The notes beneath the pieces are model-generated. The model worked only from the letters and a program-made list of their open reading frames with translations. It had not been told where the DNA came from and did not search any database. 32,576 nucleotides of DNA from Acidobacteriota bacterium (lineage in GTDB: Bacteria; Acidobacteriota; Polarisedimenticolia; Gp22-AA2): the NCBI GenBank assembly GCA_018606725.1, contig JAGYID010000028.1, positions 1-32,576 on the forward strand. The letters are read 5' to 3'. Of this stretch, positions 15,661 through 31,320 are shown one piece after another (position 1 is the stretch's first letter; each line of letters begins with the position of its first letter). The position numbers and the translations under genes were made by a program.

Positions 15661-15684
15661 GGCCGAATACTCGGACCGGCTCCT
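15661..15684. repeat. copy of dispersed intergenic repeat at the arginine decarboxylase stop
   Basis: On the minus strand AGGAGCCGGTCCGAGTATTC followed by GGCC begins inside the TAG stop codon of the decarboxylase. It is nearly identical to the sequence in the hairpin before addB (AGGAGCCTGTCCGGGTATTC). CCGA-GTAT-TCGG and the flanking CCGG pairs can form an 8-bp hairpin with one bulged T. It has no T-tract. Confidence 0.6.
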
Positions 15685-23170: not shown

Positions 23171-24049
23171 ATGTACGACGAACCTCGCGGCCTGACACTC
23201 GAGCCGGATCGCAGCAGCCGGCACAGCGTCGGCATCCATGCCTCGCCCGCCGAGGTCTATCTGGCGCTGACCGACCCCAAGGAGCTGTCGCGCTGGTTCG
23301 TGTCGGAGGCGGCCATCGATCTCAAGGCGGGCGGCTCGTACCGCTGGGTGTTCGGCGACGCCACCGGCTCGTCCGGACCGGATTCGCTGGTCGCATCCGG
23401 AGAATTCGCGCAGATCGTCCCGCACGAGTTGCTGCGGCTGAGGACGCGCGTCGAGGACCTCGACACCCAGCTCGAATTCCGGTTCGACCCGTGGCGCGAC
23501 GGCACCGTGCTGACGGTGTCGCACACCGGCTTCCCCGGGGAAGAGGCCTGGGACGACGTCTTCCGCGTCATCGACCAGGGATGGGAGTCGGAGATCCAGA
23601 TCCTGAAGCTGTTTCTCGAGCGGGCCCGCGGCATGGTGCGCCAGTCGCGCTTCCACCAGGTCCGCGTCCCGGCGCTTCCGGAGGCGCTGTTCGACCGCTT
23701 CAGCACCCCGGCCGGGATCATCGGCTGGCTGGCGCAGCGGGCGGCGGCCGTCCCGGAGCCGGGCGGGGAGCTGCGCCTGGAGTGGGACGCGCGCCCGCCG
23801 ATCACCGGCCGCTTCCTGGTCTGGGACCCGGACCGCTTCCTGGTGATGAGCTGGGAGGACCCCGGCGCCGGCCCTGCGCCGCAGCACTCGGCGGTCCGTC
23901 TCTGGCTGGAGGAGGCCGACGGCGAGGCCGCCACCGAGCTGAGCCTCGAGCACCGGCTGTTCGCCCCGGCCCCCGACCGCTTCGCCCCGTTCGACTGGGA
24001 CGCGGCGCTGGAGCGGCTGATCAAATCAGTACGATCGATCCCCGCCTGA
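23171..24049 (+). CDS. double SRPBCC (AHSA1-like) domain protein
   Basis: The product has 292 residues from ATG (23171), with CGGAG nine bases upstream; an ATG pair at 23138 is a possible but less likely start. Two START/SRPBCC-type halves follow each other. The first (about 18-155) begins HASPAEVYLALTDPKELSRWF and includes GGSYRWVFGD. The second (about 165-290) begins VPALPEALFDRFSTPAGIIG and ends PFDWDAALERLI. The first half resembles the Hsp90-activator-homologue/AHSA1 group, which binds small hydrophobic ligands in a central cavity. No catalytic residues are known for such proteins, and the ligand is unknown. Its 3' end overlaps the convergent addA gene by 29 bases. Confidence 0.85.
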   Translation: MYDEPRGLTLEPDRSSRHSVGIHASPAEVYLALTDPKELSRWFVSEAAIDLKAGGSYRWVFGDATGSSGPDSLVASGEFAQIVPHELLRLRTRVEDLDTQLEFRFDPWRDGTVLTVSHTGFPGEEAWDDVFRVIDQGWESEIQILKLFLERARGMVRQSRFHQVRVPALPEALFDRFSTPAGIIGWLAQRAAAVPEPGGELRLEWDARPPITGRFLVWDPDRFLVMSWEDPGAGPAPQHSAVRLWLEEADGEAATELSLEHRLFAPAPDRFAPFDWDAALERLIKSVRSIPA

Positions 24050-27000
24050 GAAACAGGATCTCCGACCGCACCATCGCCTGACCGAGCGCCCGCCGGAGGG
24101 CTTCCCGGTAAATTTCGAGCTGGGCGCGGTAGCGCTCCGCGTGGACTCCCGGGTCGCCATCGACGCGGTCGGTCTTGTAATCCGCCACCACGATGGCGCC
24201 GTCGCGGTCGCGGTAGACGAGATCGCACGATCCGCTCCAGGTCGTCCCGGCCTCGTCGCGATACAGGACCGGCATCTCGCGGCCCAGCACCTCGAGCGAC
24301 GCGAGACGCGCCGGCAGCCCGGAGGCGAGGAACCCATCGACGATGTCGCCGGTCTCGCGCACGACCTGCATCAGGATTTCTCCGCCCGGGGCCGGCTCCT
24401 CCGCCATCTCCTCCACCGACTGCCGCGCCATCGGCTCCAGCAGGCGGCGGAGCGCGTCCGGTTCGCGGAAGTCCCAGCGCTCCATGGCCAGGTGCACGGC
24501 GGCGCCGGCCAGGCGGCCTACCGCATCGGCGCCGCGCCGGCGATGGCCCGCCAGATCGACGGCCGCCGCCAGGTCGCTGCGGCCGTCACCGGCCTGCAGG
24601 CGCGCATCGGCGATCCCGGAGGGGCGGCCGAACGGCGGCCGGGTCGCGGCTTGGACCTCCTCCGCCGCCCGCCCGAACGCCTCCGCGGCCGCCGACCAGA
24701 AGCCGACGTCGGCCTCCGGCTGCTCCACTCGGCGCAGGGGAGCGGGCCGGACCACCCGGTGCAGGATGCGGCCGTCGTCGAGCGTACCTGGATCCGGGGG
24801 TCCTTCCTCGAGGACGTAACCCAGGGCCGCCAGAGCGTCCCGCCAGGGCGCCGCCTTGGTCCCGAACTGGCTGTTGACCAGGATCAGCCGCTCGATGGCG
24901 CGCGTGCAGGCGACGTAGAACACCCGTTTCTCCTCGGCTTCCTCGTGGCGGCGGCCCCACTCCTGGTGCGGGATCCAGGCGGCGTTGGTGGTCCCGTCAG
25001 GCAGTCGGATCGCCAGGGCCTCGGCGCCGCCGAGCCGCGCCGCCTCCAGCCGCGGCGTGCCGTCGAAACGCGTCCGGCCGGCCTCGCGACCCAGATCCGG
25101 AACGATGACCACCGGGTACTCGAGCCCCTTCGCCTTGTGGACCGAGAGGATGCGCACCGCATCGATGGTTTCGTCGGCCAGCGGGCTTTCCCCCTCGGCG
25201 CGCTCGCCGTCGAGGCTCTCTTCGAGCGCGTCGAGGGTCTCCTCGAGGGAGGCACCCTGCCTGGCCAGCGCCCCCGCCCGGGAGACCAGCTTGCCCAGAT
25301 TGGCGAGCCGCTGCGCCCCTTCGAAGGACGAGGCGTGCAGGAGGAGCAGGGGAGTGGTCTCGAGCGCCGCCCGGATGACGTCGTCGGTGGCGGCGCCTCG
25401 CGTCGAGGCGCGGAAGGACGCGAGCAGCTCGAGCGTCCGTTGCACGTGCGGGAACGGTGCGACATCGCCGAGCCCGCCGTCCGGCCGGTCGAAGCAGCCG
25501 CCGGCGGCGGCGAAGCGCGCCAGCTCCTCGTCGGGCACAGCCCCCAGCGGCGACCGCATGACCGCCAGGACGGCGGGAGCGTCGTGGGGGTTGACGACGG
25601 CCCGGAGAAACGCGACCAGGTCGCCGACCTCGGAACGTTCGTAAAAGTCTTTGCCGCCTTCGACGATGTAAGGGATGCCGGCGCGCCGCAGCGCATCGGC
25701 GTACAGCCCGGCGTTGGTCAGGGCTCGAAGCAGGATCGCCACCTGGCCGAATTTCAGCGCGGCGCCGGTCGCGTCGATCCGCCCGCGCTGGTCCTCGATC
25801 CAGGCGGCGATCGCCTCGGCCTCGGCCCGCCGGCGGATCTCGGCGTTACCGTCGGCGATCACCGACCAGATCTCCGCCCGCGGGCCGCCGCGCGGCCCGC
25901 GGGCCGATTGGATCGGCTCGTAGGGCGGCTCGTACGGGCCGTCGCCGGAGGGGCGGATGAGCCGGGCAAACAGACGATTGATCGGCTCGACGATCTCGGC
26001 CGGGCTGCGGAACGAGGCGGAGAGCGTCAGTCGCTCGCCGCCGCAAGCCTCGATGCGACCCACCGCCCGGTTGTAGGCGTCGATATCGGCACCGCGGAAC
26101 CGGTAGATCGATTGCTTCGGATCGCCCACGATGAACAACCGGCCGGCCTGCAGCCGGGCATCGAACGGATCGGCGCTCACGGTGGAGCCGCCCGCGCACA
26201 GGTAGAACAGGATCTCGTACTGCAGCGGATCGGTGTCCTGGAATTCATCGACCAGCAGCACGGGCGTGCGCGCGGACAGTTCGCGCCGCGCCTCCGGGTG
26301 GGACTGCAGCAGATCGCGCACCAGGCGCAGGAGCCCGTCGAACGACACGAAGCCGGACGCGAGCAGGCGCTCGCGGCAGCGCGCCGCCAGCGGCAGGGCG
26401 GCGTTCACCAGCGTGCCGACCGGGGCCTCGTCCACCAGCGCCAGGGCGCCGACGACGTCCCTGGCGCGCCCCGCCACCTCCTCCACGATCTCGGGATCGG
26501 CGCCGGCCAGGTTCCTGCCGGGCGCCGGCACGCCCTTCTCAAGGTAATCGGAGGGCGCCAGGCGGGCGAGGGCCGCGGCCAGTCCGCCGCTCCCGTCGCG
26601 CGCAAAGGCTCCGAGCATCTCGTTCGAGCGCCGCAGGAAACCTTGCATGTTCTCGTTGGCGCCGGTGACGGTCTTCAGGAGGTGGTCGAGGTCGCGACGC
26701 AACCGTTCGACCAGCGGGCCGAGGACCAGACGGGGGTCGACGCTCCCATAACCGGGATCGGGGGAGTTGAGGGAAGGGGGGAGGCCGAACGAGGCGAGCG
26801 CCCGCGCCAGCGCGCGGATGACTTCGAGGGCGCCGGGGAAGCGCAGCGCCTCGCGCCACAGCGCCTCCCGGCCCGGCTTCGGCCCGAGCTCAGCGGCCAG
26901 GTAGGCTCCCCATTCCTCCTCGAACACCCGGTCGGCCGCCGGCCCGTCATCGATCTGGAAGGCGGCGTCGACGCCCGCCTCGACCGGGTAGCGGCGAAGG

Positions 27001-27428
27001 ATCTCGGCGCAGAACGAGTGGATGGTGCTGACCGCGGCCGCGTCGAGGTTCAACAGCGCCGGCAGGGCCCGCCCTGCCACCTCATCCGGCCTTTGCCCGG
27101 CCTCGCCCAGCAGAAAATCGCGCGCCCGAACCGCTTCGCCGGCCGGATCGGCGGGCGGCGGTCCCGCCGTCAAGGCACGCAGGTGATCGAGCCCGACCGC
27201 CAGCCGCAGGCGCAGCTCGGCCGCCGCCTTCTCGGTGAAGGTGATCACCGCCAGCTGGTCGATGCGGGCCCGGCCGCCGCCGATCAGGTTCAGGGCGCGC
27301 TCGACCAGCAGCGCCGTCTTGCCGGTGCCGGCGCCGGCGGTCACCACCAGGTTGCGATCGAAGACCGTGGCGGCGCGCCGCCGATCGCCGGCATCCGGCA
27401 GTGGCCGGCCGGCGGCGGGACGGCTCAT
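24021..27428 (-). CDS. addA: AddA-type helicase-nuclease subunit (UvrD-like helicase with PD-(D/E)XK nuclease)
   Basis: The product has 1135 residues from ATG (27428), whose ATGA overlaps the addB stop. It unwinds and degrades double-strand DNA ends to start recombinational repair. Superfamily 1 motifs in order are Walker A TAGAGTGKT (30-38), ITFTEKAAAEL, STIHSFCAEIL, Walker B LLVDEFQDTDPLQYE, FIVGDPKQSIYRFRGAD, LSASFRSP, ILSVHKAKGLEYPVVIV and FYVACTRAIERL. A C-terminal nuclease (about 1065-1095) shows GSCDLVYRDRDG then VADYKTDR, with the catalytic Asp and Asp-x-Lys. This architecture fits AddA (RecB-like). It lies directly after addB, in the usual B-A order. Confidence 0.95.
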   Translation of the reverse strand: MSRPAAGRPLPDAGDRRRAATVFDRNLVVTAGAGTGKTALLVERALNLIGGGRARIDQLAVITFTEKAAAELRLRLAVGLDHLRALTAGPPPADPAGEAVRARDFLLGEAGQRPDEVAGRALPALLNLDAAAVSTIHSFCAEILRRYPVEAGVDAAFQIDDGPAADRVFEEEWGAYLAAELGPKPGREALWREALRFPGALEVIRALARALASFGLPPSLNSPDPGYGSVDPRLVLGPLVERLRRDLDHLLKTVTGANENMQGFLRRSNEMLGAFARDGSGGLAAALARLAPSDYLEKGVPAPGRNLAGADPEIVEEVAGRARDVVGALALVDEAPVGTLVNAALPLAARCRERLLASGFVSFDGLLRLVRDLLQSHPEARRELSARTPVLLVDEFQDTDPLQYEILFYLCAGGSTVSADPFDARLQAGRLFIVGDPKQSIYRFRGADIDAYNRAVGRIEACGGERLTLSASFRSPAEIVEPINRLFARLIRPSGDGPYEPPYEPIQSARGPRGGPRAEIWSVIADGNAEIRRRAEAEAIAAWIEDQRGRIDATGAALKFGQVAILLRALTNAGLYADALRRAGIPYIVEGGKDFYERSEVGDLVAFLRAVVNPHDAPAVLAVMRSPLGAVPDEELARFAAAGGCFDRPDGGLGDVAPFPHVQRTLELLASFRASTRGAATDDVIRAALETTPLLLLHASSFEGAQRLANLGKLVSRAGALARQGASLEETLDALEESLDGERAEGESPLADETIDAVRILSVHKAKGLEYPVVIVPDLGREAGRTRFDGTPRLEAARLGGAEALAIRLPDGTTNAAWIPHQEWGRRHEEAEEKRVFYVACTRAIERLILVNSQFGTKAAPWRDALAALGYVLEEGPPDPGTLDDGRILHRVVRPAPLRRVEQPEADVGFWSAAAEAFGRAAEEVQAATRPPFGRPSGIADARLQAGDGRSDLAAAVDLAGHRRRGADAVGRLAGAAVHLAMERWDFREPDALRRLLEPMARQSVEEMAEEPAPGGEILMQVVRETGDIVDGFLASGLPARLASLEVLGREMPVLYRDEAGTTWSGSCDLVYRDRDGAIVVADYKTDRVDGDPGVHAERYRAQLEIYREALRRALGQAMVRSEILFLRRGSIVLI

Positions 27429-30400
27429 CGCCGCCTCCCGGTCGCCTCCGGCGCGGCGCGCCGGGCGACGTCCGCGAGCAGCGGCGCGCGGGTGCTCTTG
27501 CCGCGCAGCCGGCGGTAGGCCTCGAGGCGCGGGTCGGCCTCGAGGCGGGCGACGGTGGGCGGATGCAGACGGCGGCAGGCTCGTACGTAGGGACAGTGAC
27601 CACAGTAACGGGAATCCTCGCGGTTGAACGGGAACAGGCCGGCCCGCGCCAGATCGACGAGGACCGTCAGGGTCTCCAGGAGACCGGCCCGATTGGCCTC
27701 GAATTTCTCCGGATCGATCGACGCCCGGACCGGGAATTCGGCGGCACGGTCGAACGCCGGTCCGGCGCCCAGGACCTCGGCGGTGACCCGGGCGCGCGGG
27801 CGCTGCCAGGCTGCGCGGAGCTCTTCGGCCATCAGGACGTAGACCGGCATCTGCAGCCTGGCGCCCTTGAGCATCGTCGCCGCGTCGACGTGCGACTCCA
27901 GATCGGCGCCGCCGGTCTTGTAGTCGGTGATCACGATGGCGTCCTCCCCGCGCGCGTCGGCGCGATCGAAGCGCCCTTCGACGATCACCGGATCGCCCTG
28001 CCCGCCCCCGCCGGCGAGGTCCAGCGACGCCGTGGCGGCATGCTCGACCCCCAGGATGGTCGTCCTCCGGGCGCACAGGGCGGCGACCTCGGCGCGCACG
28101 AGGCGTTCCAGGGAGTCGCGCCAGGTCGCGAGGAGGGCCTCGCGGAGCAGCGGATAACGACGCATCCGGGCCGCGATCCTGCCGGCGCGCAGCTCGACGC
28201 TCTGCCGCATGGTCCGCAACGCCAGATCGATCGTCAACGTCTCGTTCCCCGGTCGCAACGGCGTCGGCGCCTCCATGAGCGCGGCGAAGACGTCGCGCAG
28301 CGCGGCGTGAAGACCCAGGCCGACTTCGAGGCGGTCGATGTCGTAGCCCTCCATCGCTTCATCGAGCTCATCCACGTGGAGCAAGTGACGGAAGAAGAAG
28401 CGCTGCGGGCAGGCGCCGATGGCCTCGAGTCGCGACGGCGACCAATGCGCGGGCGGTGGGACGGCACCGCCCACGAAGGCGTCGTACCGTCGATCGGGGC
28501 CCGCGGCCTCGTCGATCGAGGCCATCATGGCAAGTCCGGCACGCAGGCGCGCCGGGTCGTCAACGGCCGCCGCCGGCAGCCGGTCGGCGGTTGCGAGCAG
28601 GCGGAGCGGGGAGCGCAGCGCCAGCGCCACGCCGGCCGCCGCGGCCCCGGGGGGCAGGATGCCGTGGGTCTGGACCGCCCTCGCGAGCCACTGCGCCGGG
28701 TGCGTCGGGACCCGGTCGGCCGCGCGCTCGACGAGGGCGGCGTCAGGCTGGCCGAAGGCCAGGCGCGCCGCCTCCCGCAGCATCAGGCTCGGCACCCTGG
28801 CGCGACCCGCGTCGTCGGCGCGCTGCCAGGAGATCGTCAGGCTCCGGCAGGCGCAGCCCAGCAGGTGGGCGAGAAGCAGGTGCTCCTCGCCGGCGGCGTC
28901 GGACCCGATCGGGATTGGTGCGCCGAGCCGTTCCTTCAGCCGGCGGCGCTCGAGGTCGCCCAGGAAGGGAACTTCCCGGGCCCGCCGGGGAATCAGATCG
29001 GCGTTGAAGCCGATCAGGAAGACGTGGTCGAAGGTCAGGCCGCGGGCCTGCATGGCGTCGAGGATGCGCACGCCGCCGTTGTCGCCCGCCTGCCCGGAAC
29101 CATCGGCGCCGACCGAGCCGATCGGCACGCTCCGCCGCGCCAACGCCCGCTCGAAGAACAGCATGGCGGACCGTGACGAGAATGGCAGGCGCGCGCCGTC
29201 GAGGTCGCGCACCTCGGCCAGGACTTCAAGCATCAGGTCGAAGATGACACCGCGCGCCGGTTCGCCGGACGCCGCATCGCCACCGGCGTTGCCGGCGCCC
29301 ATGATCGTCGACAGCAGGCTGTCGACGCCATCCGCCCATGCGGCCCAGGAGGCCGCCGCCGCGGCCTGGCTCGCCGCCTGCCGCAGGGCGGTCACGGCGG
29401 CGGCGAGCGCGTCGGCGGCCCGGATGCGCGCCTGCTGCGCCGCCAGGACGCGGTCGCGGAACGCCTCGTCGGCGTCCTCGGGCAGAAACGGCTCCGCAGC
29501 GGCAATCCAGCGGGGCAGATCCTTTGTCCAGGCTTCGTAGCCACGGCTGACCTGCCAGCGCCGGCTGAGATCGTCCCAGACGTGCGCCTGGTCGGCGACG
29601 TCGCGTCCGGCGATGGTGCAGAGGCCGCTGCGGAACAGATCGATCAAGGGTTGTCTCTCGAAATCCCCGCCGATGACGCGCACCAGGTTGAGCGCCGCCT
29701 GCACCGCCGCCTCGCGCGGCGCTCCGAGGGCGGCGGTCGTCGTGAACGGCAGGGAGTGCCCGGCGAACACCGGCCGCAGATCGGCCGCGTACGGCTCCAG
29801 GCTCCGTCCCACCACCGCCACGCGGCGCAGCGGCGCGCGCGCCTCGCGCTGCAGCGCCAGGATCCGCAGCGCCACCTCGCGCAGCTCCGCCGCGGTTCCC
29901 TGGGCGTGGAAGAAGCGGATCGCCCCCGCCGCCGCCGGGGAGGGCCGCGACTCCTCGCGATAGAGGTCTGGCAGGGACGGCCCGAGCAGCGCCGGCCCGG
30001 CGACCTCCGGAAGGAAGACCGGAGCGACGCCGAGCTGTTCGGACCAGAACCTTCGGGCGTGCGCGAAGGCGGGTGATGTGGGATGGTACGGCGCCAGAAA
30101 GCGCACCGGGGTGCCGGAGCGCGCCGCCCGGTGGAGGAACGCGAGGTTCACACCGATCAGCTCGTAGGCGCCGTAGTGCACGATCAGCCGAAAGCGCCGG
30201 GCGAACGCCTCGGCGCAATCGGCCGCCAGCTGCGCACGCCCCGCCCGGTCCGTCGGTCCCTGCGGGCGCAGCGCATCCAGCCTGGAGGCGTAGGCCCGGT
30301 ACACCGCCAGCACCTGCCTGCCACGTTTGGCGGGGCGCGGCGCCGCCAGGTCCGCGGTAAGGTCGACGCCGGCCTCGCGGAGGTCGTCGAACACATCCAG

Positions 30401-30811
30401 GAGAATGGCGAGGCTGCCGGGCCGCGCCGCGGTGTGCGCCGCCAGCGGACCGCCCTCGCGCGCCACGATGTCCGCCAGGATCGCCTCCCTGACATCCTCG
30501 GAAAGCAGGCGGGGGAGCGACACGCCGGCCGCGGCCGCGGCGGCCCGCGCCAGTGCCTCGTGGTGGTAGAAATGCACCGCGACGAGCCCGGGTCGCTGCT
30601 CGGCGAGACGGAGCTGGAGGTGGGCGAGCAGCCGCCGGGTGGGAGCGACCACGGCAATGGGCGCGAACGGTCCCTCCGGAGCCTCGCGCTTGCAGCCGTC
30701 GATCAGGTCGGCGAGCCGCGCCTCGAGGACGGTGAAATCGTGGTGGCCCTCGATGGGTCCAAGCGCACTCGGCCGTTCGGTGGCTTCAGGAATGGGGCGC
30801 CCCGCTGCCAA
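27425..30811 (-). CDS. addB: AddB-type helicase-nuclease subunit with Fe-S nuclease domain
   Basis: The product has 1128 residues from TTG (30811), the only ATG/GTG/TTG codon before the conserved region. The N-terminal helicase-like half (VVAPTRRLLAHLQLRL near residue 55) lacks a Walker A motif, as expected of an inactive helicase that scans DNA. The C-terminal half carries GACPQRFFFRHLL (about 800), VITDYKTGG (about 962, nuclease Asp-x-Lys) and RYCGHCPYVRACRR (about 1072-1084). The single upstream Cys plus three clustered ones fit the 4Fe-4S staple of AddB-type nucleases. The start codon sits in the 3' arm of a perfect 18-bp hairpin, with no ribosome-binding site directly before it. It pairs with AddA downstream. 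Confidence 0.9.
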   Translation of the reverse strand: MAAGRPIPEATERPSALGPIEGHHDFTVLEARLADLIDGCKREAPEGPFAPIAVVAPTRRLLAHLQLRLAEQRPGLVAVHFYHHEALARAAAAAAGVSLPRLLSEDVREAILADIVAREGGPLAAHTAARPGSLAILLDVFDDLREAGVDLTADLAAPRPAKRGRQVLAVYRAYASRLDALRPQGPTDRAGRAQLAADCAEAFARRFRLIVHYGAYELIGVNLAFLHRAARSGTPVRFLAPYHPTSPAFAHARRFWSEQLGVAPVFLPEVAGPALLGPSLPDLYREESRPSPAAAGAIRFFHAQGTAAELREVALRILALQREARAPLRRVAVVGRSLEPYAADLRPVFAGHSLPFTTTAALGAPREAAVQAALNLVRVIGGDFERQPLIDLFRSGLCTIAGRDVADQAHVWDDLSRRWQVSRGYEAWTKDLPRWIAAAEPFLPEDADEAFRDRVLAAQQARIRAADALAAAVTALRQAASQAAAAASWAAWADGVDSLLSTIMGAGNAGGDAASGEPARGVIFDLMLEVLAEVRDLDGARLPFSSRSAMLFFERALARRSVPIGSVGADGSGQAGDNGGVRILDAMQARGLTFDHVFLIGFNADLIPRRAREVPFLGDLERRRLKERLGAPIPIGSDAAGEEHLLLAHLLGCACRSLTISWQRADDAGRARVPSLMLREAARLAFGQPDAALVERAADRVPTHPAQWLARAVQTHGILPPGAAAAGVALALRSPLRLLATADRLPAAAVDDPARLRAGLAMMASIDEAAGPDRRYDAFVGGAVPPPAHWSPSRLEAIGACPQRFFFRHLLHVDELDEAMEGYDIDRLEVGLGLHAALRDVFAALMEAPTPLRPGNETLTIDLALRTMRQSVELRAGRIAARMRRYPLLREALLATWRDSLERLVRAEVAALCARRTTILGVEHAATASLDLAGGGGQGDPVIVEGRFDRADARGEDAIVITDYKTGGADLESHVDAATMLKGARLQMPVYVLMAEELRAAWQRPRARVTAEVLGAGPAFDRAAEFPVRASIDPEKFEANRAGLLETLTVLVDLARAGLFPFNREDSRYCGHCPYVRACRRLHPPTVARLEADPRLEAYRRLRGKSTRAPLLADVARRAAPEATGRRR

Positions 30812-30851
30812 GGAGCCTGGCCGAATACCCGGACAGGCTCCTTGGCAGCGG
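30802..30851 (-). repeat. 18-bp perfect inverted repeat at the addB start, containing the dispersed repeat
   Basis: On the minus strand CCGCTGCCAAGGAGCCTG pairs exactly with CAGGCTCCTTGGCAGCGG around the 14-base loop TCCGGGTATTCGGC, in which CCG and CGG can pair further. The 3' arm contains the TTG start of addB, and the 5' arm contains AAGGAG. No T-tract follows. Its central part matches the repeat at 15661-15684. Confidence 0.9.
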
Positions 30852-30853
30852 TC

Positions 30854-30862
30854 ATTCTATCA
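30854..30862 (-). promoter_or_regulatory. extended -10 promoter of addBA
   Basis: On the minus strand TGA-TAGAAT (-10 five of six, with TGn extension) predicts a transcript starting near 30847, inside the 5' arm of the inverted repeat. No -35 is seen. The remaining 30863-30918 shows nothing else. Confidence 0.5.
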
Positions 30863-30918: not shown

Positions 30919-31320
30919 CTACTTCTTGTCGCCCGAACCCGGCTCGGGGTCGGTGTTGGGGTCGAGGCTGTTGGTCAGGAATGACTTCAGATCATCTTCG
31001 GGCGCCAGGGCGGCGCCGTCGCGATTCATGAACTCGGCGATCTCGTCCTGCAGCGACTTCGGCTGCTCCTTCTTCTTCGCCTCGGCGGCCTTGCGCTTCT
31101 TCGCCGGCTTGGGCGGCGGTGGCGGCTCCTCCTCCTCACGGTCGAGCCGCGACAGCATGCCGAGCTCGTCGGGCGACAGGTTCGGCATCGGCGGCGGCGG
31201 TGGCGGTGCGACCGCCGACGGCAGCGCCTCGGGCGCCGGCAGGAAGGCGTCGAGCAGCAGGCGCTGCTTCGGAGTGCGGACCAGCAGCTCGAACCGCTGG
31301 TAGAGATCGGCGATCGACAC
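30919..31320 (-). CDS. low-complexity Pro/Lys-rich protein, unknown function
   Basis: The product has 133 residues from GTG (31320), with GGAG four bases upstream. It begins with a possible helix (MSIADLYQRFELLVRTPKQR), then a Pro-rich stretch (APPPPPPMPNLSP), an acidic run followed by another Pro run (REEEEPPPPPKP), a Lys/Ala-rich stretch (AKKRKAAEAKKKEQ) and an acidic C-terminus (LQDEIAEFMNRDG). There is no signal peptide or membrane segment. It is probably largely disordered. It starts 15 bases after the coiled-coil/TPR gene stop, so the two are probably one transcript and may be partners. I recognise no family. Confidence 0.7.
   Translation of the reverse strand: MSIADLYQRFELLVRTPKQRLLLDAFLPAPEALPSAVAPPPPPPMPNLSPDELGMLSRLDREEEEPPPPPKPAKKRKAAEAKKKEQPKSLQDEIAEFMNRDGAALAPEDDLKSFLTNSLDPNTDPEPGSGDKK

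Follow-up and report, generated by a model that had tools for sequence, protein, structure and literature searches.

A stable hairpin upstream of an acidobacterial addB gene is very probably a copy of a dispersed MITE/REP-like repeat

Stabilizing hairpins at the 5′ end of mRNAs and leaders that sequester the start codon are well known, for example in the ompA-type leader and in structured initiation regions. MITEs and similar elements have been described as altering the mRNA stability of their neighbours (PMC3733652), and template switching is known to homogenize and extend inverted repeats (PMC7202029, PMC8604942, PMC3820800). Here we examined an addB gene of an Acidobacteriota bacterium that appeared to have a bespoke hairpin gate at its start codon, and found that this hairpin leads instead to a genome-wide family of palindromic elements in the Acidobacteriota. 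All positions are those of the window, i.e., the whole 32,576-nt stretch of DNA that was analysed.

The addB locus and its hairpin

The addB product is an AddB-like protein with a C-terminal PD-(D/E)XK nuclease domain (PDDEXK_1, E 1e-28; addB_Gpos, 1.6e-15, which is below the latter's curated cut-off), and an AddA-like gene is adjacent (Table 1). The small gene upstream, which carries a SLQDEIAEFMNRD motif and has no Pfam or NCBIfam match, is separated from addB by a 107-nt same-strand gap containing the hairpin. The original prediction of an 18-bp perfect hairpin in front of addB was borne out, since a repeat search returned an inverted repeat with two 22-nt arms (30802-30823 and 30830-30851, 95% complementary). 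On the minus strand, the outermost 18 bp of the stem are perfect and are followed by one T/C mismatch, four more pairs and a GTAT loop (TGATAGAAT-GA-[CCGCTGCCAAGGAGCCTG]-T-CCGG-GTAT-TCGG-C-[CAGGCTCCTTGGCAGCGG], where the additional brackets enclose the perfect 18 bp). The geometry was also predicted correctly, with a TTG in the 3′ arm paired with the AAGGAG-containing 5′ arm and a -10-like box just outside the stem. RNA folding of the hairpin gave an MFE of -50.5 kcal/mol (z -5.7), and none of 200 shuffles was equally stable.

Table 1. Coordinates of the features discussed, in window positions.
Feature	Position	Strand	Remarks
Small conserved upstream gene	30919..31320	-	Gene order kept in relatives
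Extended -10-like box TGATAGAAT	30854..30862	-	Positional equivalent of TATGAT in relatives (comparison of upstream regions)
Outer 5′ arm CCGCTGCCAA	30842..30851	-	Private to the addB copy; junction with the repeat unique, stems of other copies extend 0-5 bp
Inner 30 bp, short palindromic repeat copy, GGAGCCTGTCCGGGTATTCGGCCAGGCTCC	30812..30841	-	Genome matches to its 22-nt half, see text
Outer 3′ arm TTGGCAGCGG	30802..30811	-	Repeats the 5′ outer arm in inverted orientation; includes the TTG; resembles TTGGCGGCG at the G001 addB TTG start
TTG, candidate start	30809..30811	-	Sole canonical start in frame with addB; stem-buried (frame scan, folding)
CTT	30761..30763	-	At the position of the ATG start in G003/G005/G006/G007 (alignment with relatives)
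addB-like nuclease/helicase subunit	27425..30811	-	1128 aa; PDDEXK_1; homology to relatives from about residue 13-20
addA-like helicase-nuclease frame, downstream	24021..28076	-	UvrD helicase, PDDEXK_1; true start inside the frame
Second window copy of the repeat, one-sided	15662..15683	-	Begins in the TAG stop of a pyruvoyl-dependent arginine decarboxylase gene

A dispersed repeat family and the origin of the stem

We searched the bacterium's own genome (G000, 3.74 Mb in 235 contigs) with the 101 bases around the hairpin and obtained 34 matches, mostly to the inner part only. The 22-mer GGAGCCTGTCCGAGTATTCGGC, allowing up to three mismatches, gave 94 matches, compared to one for a reversed-pattern control. 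Nearly all of these were retrieved, and 90 copies were sorted by a simple script into 26 hairpins, 17 one-sided copies and 47 that either run on as a longer element or look like its end; these genome-wide statistics are based on retrieved stretches of a draft assembly. The hairpin class consists mostly of ~30-bp copies (GGAGCC...GTAT...GGCTCC), a few of which have poor or distant right arms, and the longer form is ~275 bp with similar inverted ends of ~34 nt (e.g., L028:39-312). Near-full ~275-bp copies lie on contigs C179, C80, C197, C105, C46 and C20, and many contigs end inside the element. The hairpin, one-sided and ~275-bp two-ended forms have common ends (GGAGCCTGTCCGAGTATT), usually flanked as CTA/GGAGCC..GGCTCC/TAG, the slashes marking the edges. 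Head-to-head fusions of two element ends (~51 bp), standing between the 30-bp hairpin and the ~275-bp form, were seen at L256 (G003:C15:32752-32802) and on G007 contigs C32, C112 and C325. A second repeat, ending in ...CCGGTGAGAAATCCGGG, borders CTAG beside several copies (L099, L101, L105, L146, L147, L118 and L226) and at many contig ends; it appears to be the terminus of a different insertion element, which would likewise use CTAG.

Among 60 relatives, the repeat was matched 81 times in G003 and 42 times in G007, with 2, 1, 1, 0 and 0 matches in the other five family members (G001, G002, G004, G005 and G006, as a group), and it is near absent beyond the family. An exact 23-mer search of 84,980 species genomes returned one other MAG only, JACOUZ01. 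The coordinates of the repeat matches agree between G007 and the Acidobacteria MAG NC_groundwater_87_Ag_B-0.1um_69_32, to which G007 corresponds, and this places the window in the acidobacterial family of that MAG, most of which is uncultured.

The left edge of the repeat (TA/G) is the in-phase stop codon of the preceding forward gene (TAG, once TAA) in 27 of the 31 copies of the own genome, and in 15 of 15 in G003, for which a forward gene, unannotated and inferred by codon usage, clearly reaches that edge. Examples of copies abutting a stop codon are L114, L124, L133 and L143, together with the copy at 15683 of the window. Element-free orthologues of two such genes end at the same residue with a TAA or TGA stop (L114 vs. 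L201, 64%; L124 vs. L203, 88%), and hence the copies at stop codons leave protein length unchanged there. This suggests that placement at stop codons may allow an insertion element to spread without doing damage, which is possibly a more interesting property of the family than the addB hairpin.

As the addB hairpin is one of ~90 dispersed copies, it is better read as a repeat-derived insertion than as a purpose-built conserved switch. What distinguishes it is its stem: the outer 10 bp of each arm adjoin the repeat nowhere but at addB, and the stem is extended by at most 5 bp in all the other copies. The usual CTA/TAG flanks are missing from the addB copy, which has AA/TT, and it reads GGCCAGGCTCC compared to GGCCGGGCTCC in most hairpin copies, replacing a wobble by a pair, as expected from a homogenization of the arms. 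We infer, as regards both timing and mechanism, that the stem grew after the insertion, when 10 bp of flanking sequence were duplicated in inverted orientation, for which template switching at the palindrome is the simplest route. In G001, the start region of addB resembles the 3′ outer arm, which favours the 3′ arm as the ancestral one and the 5′ arm as its copy. Alternatively, the repeat could have entered a leader palindrome that already existed, at its centre, which would result in the same structure. In summary, the identity of the repeat, its copy number, its inverted-repeat long form, its absence at addB in relatives and the matching -10 box and gene order make it very probable that a short MITE/REP-like copy was inserted downstream of the -10 box, ahead of the coding region, and that its stem was then lengthened.

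Start codon, transcript and addB leaders in relatives

We compared addB with its counterparts in five family members (G001, G003, G005, G006 and G007; 48-52% identity, with the alignment starting at query residue 13-15). All five have the same small gene upstream and a -10-like box in between (TATGAT in four, TAAGAT in G007), and the corresponding hexamer in the window is TAGAAT, with no -35 match upstream of TGATAGAAT. This corresponding position makes it plausible that transcription starts in the leader; the usual spacing would place the RNA start at ~30849-30845, within the 5′ arm as originally predicted. RNAs starting 5-9 nt past the -10 box fold at -42 to -54 kcal/mol in this segment, and an addB mRNA with such a start would open with a stem of ~12-16 bp that buries the TTG, whose bases (30811-30809) have an ensemble unpaired probability of about 1e-3 or less. 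This terminal stem would reduce initiation from the TTG, shield the RNA 5′ end, or both. At a TTG buried in this way, hardly any initiation is to be expected, unless upstream translation or helicases open the RNA. Hence, addB could be translated very weakly, initiation could take place downstream at a non-canonical codon, or transcription could come from further upstream. The very stable leader hairpin probably lowers addB translation or stabilizes the RNA.

The TTG is the sole canonical candidate, since, in agreement with the original prediction, no in-frame ATG, GTG or TTG lies between TTG 30811 and IEGHHDF. However, codon usage over codons 1-19, from the TTG to IEGHHDF, is -0.67 per codon, compared to 0.42 ± 0.30 for the 19-codon windows of addB (0.7% of which are as low), and this non-coding-like usage suggests that translation may not truly begin at the buried TTG. 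Since the inner 30 bp belong to a repeat found across the genome, the AAGGAG is largely the repeat edge (GGAGCC) and not an addB ribosome-binding site. In G003, G005, G006 and G007, the addB start is an ATG immediately ahead of (I)EGHHDF or its counterpart, and G001 has a TTG only, in TTGGCGGCG, which resembles TTGGCAGCG of the window. Hence, G001 speaks for TTG 30811 and both codon usage and burial speak against it, and translation may in fact begin 3′ of the stem. We also considered an ATG in another frame, which overlaps the -10 box and opens a frame of ~50 codons across the hairpin, but dropped it as a candidate, since it is present in no relative. In several addB and other genes of the class (L163, L165 and L167), a -10-like box lies only 7-12 nt before the start codon, a spacing that suggests leaderless mRNAs in the class. 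TANNNT is enriched at -18 to -13 in the gene samples of G000 and G003.

The repeat is absent from the addB upstream regions of all five family members. Nevertheless, three of them have unrelated perfect palindromes at the same spot, between TATGAT and ATG: GCGGCGCG..CGCGCCGC in G003 (8 bp), CGCTCC..GGAGCG in G005 (6 bp) and GGCCGCCG..CGGCGGCC in G006 (8 bp). Those of G003 and G006 were not found elsewhere in the sampled 400 kb of G003 and 431 kb of G000 and so are not repeats there, and that of G005 has three exact copies in its genome, too few to call it a repeat. A comparable hairpin is missing from the other two relatives, as G001 has a 4-bp stem only and the leader of G007, a congener of G003, is 12 nt long and hairpin-free. 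Gating of addB translation by the hairpin stands as far as a plausible transcript and a sole canonical start within the stem are concerned, but not as an evolved addB gate, given a dispersed repeat, its absence from relatives' addB, the ATG starts in four of five, a close relative whose leader forms no hairpin and the non-coding-like codons 1-19.

A functional 5′-terminal leader hairpin whose place is retained in the family although its sequence changes, with the repeat recruited into it or inserted within it and now gating translation or stabilizing the RNA, would account for the three palindromes. Only 5-6% of the sampled genes have a stem of at least 6 bp in the 35 nt before their start. 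These frequencies are, however, near the shuffle level (6.0 vs. 4.3% shuffled in G000, 5.2 vs. 3.8% in G003), for which reason a clade-wide habit of leader hairpins was rejected. Dinucleotide shuffles of each leader gave P values of 0.05 (G003), 0.06 (G005), 0.02 (G006), 0.71 (G001) and 0.94 (G007), with a Fisher's combined P of about 0.03 over the five, and class-level relatives mostly have very short addB leaders. With two leaders lacking a comparable stem, positional conservation in the family is a hint and a weak case, and we consider the functional leader unlikely. Likewise unlikely is the combined reading, in which a mobile repeat was domesticated as the addB 5′ leader in a family that repeatedly gains hairpins there, with exposure of the start depending on the opening of the stem. 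A role as intrinsic terminator or attenuator, acting between addB and the gene before it, would suit a very stable stem in a 107-nt same-strand gap, but no T-run follows the stem on either strand, the terminator scan was empty at the hairpin, and the hairpin is placed after the addB -10 box rather than in the stretch from the upstream stop codon to the promoter, all of which makes this reading extremely improbable.

Relation to known elements

We compared the repeat with the known kinds of small mobile elements. A strict REP element, mobilized by a RAYT, would match an imperfect palindrome of 20-40 bp with an internal mismatch and many extragenic copies. However, the GTAG/CGTC tag (as defined in PMC3733652) is at neither edge, the edges being CTAG/GAGCC and GGCTC/CTAG; no Y1 transposase (PF01797) was matched in G000, G001, G003, G005, G006 or G007; and the repeat is continuous with the ~275-bp two-ended element, so that this assignment is very unlikely. 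The repeat is non-coding, with terminal inverted repeats and many dispersed copies, as in a MITE, and its two-ended copies are flanked by CTA..TAG, which fits a TA or CTAG target-site duplication, although this sequence is itself palindromic. A search for DDE_Tnp_1 in three genomes, all draft assemblies, yielded a single such gene and no parent transposase with matching ends. This DDE_Tnp_1 gene, a 462-codon frame in the own genome at L226 (G000:C148:385-1059), has inverted ends around CTAACTAACCGGCATTG; a PF01609 IS was rejected as the parent, as this single gene bears other ends. The hairpin had no Rfam hit near the gathering score (sub-threshold only), and the ~275-bp element had no meaningful match to plasmids. 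A MITE-like family with many reduced copies is the simplest description; the MITE/REP-like kind is known, and the family itself appears to be new as far as our searches show, no description having been found.

The addB case suggests that hairpins at start codons should first be checked for repeats. If the stem is transcribed, it would provide a natural test of the suppression of initiation by a terminal hairpin.

Like MITEs (NEMIS/Correia, RUP, ERIC and Nezha), the family is non-coding, dispersed and intergenic, with inverted ends and gene-adjacent hairpins; unlike them, many of its copies retain just one end or a hairpin of ~30 bp, the searches yielded no parent transposase, and the repeat edge often coincides with TAG stop codons. 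With REP elements (GTAG-/CGTC-tagged, PMC3733652), it shares size, imperfect palindrome, high copy number and extragenic location, but it lacks the tag and a RAYT and is related to the ends of a longer element. Like an ompA-type or start-codon-sequestering leader, the addB hairpin would work from the very 5′ terminus and mask the start codon, whereas it is repeat-derived, not conserved in sequence and without a ribosome-binding site, and its regulatory role is putative.
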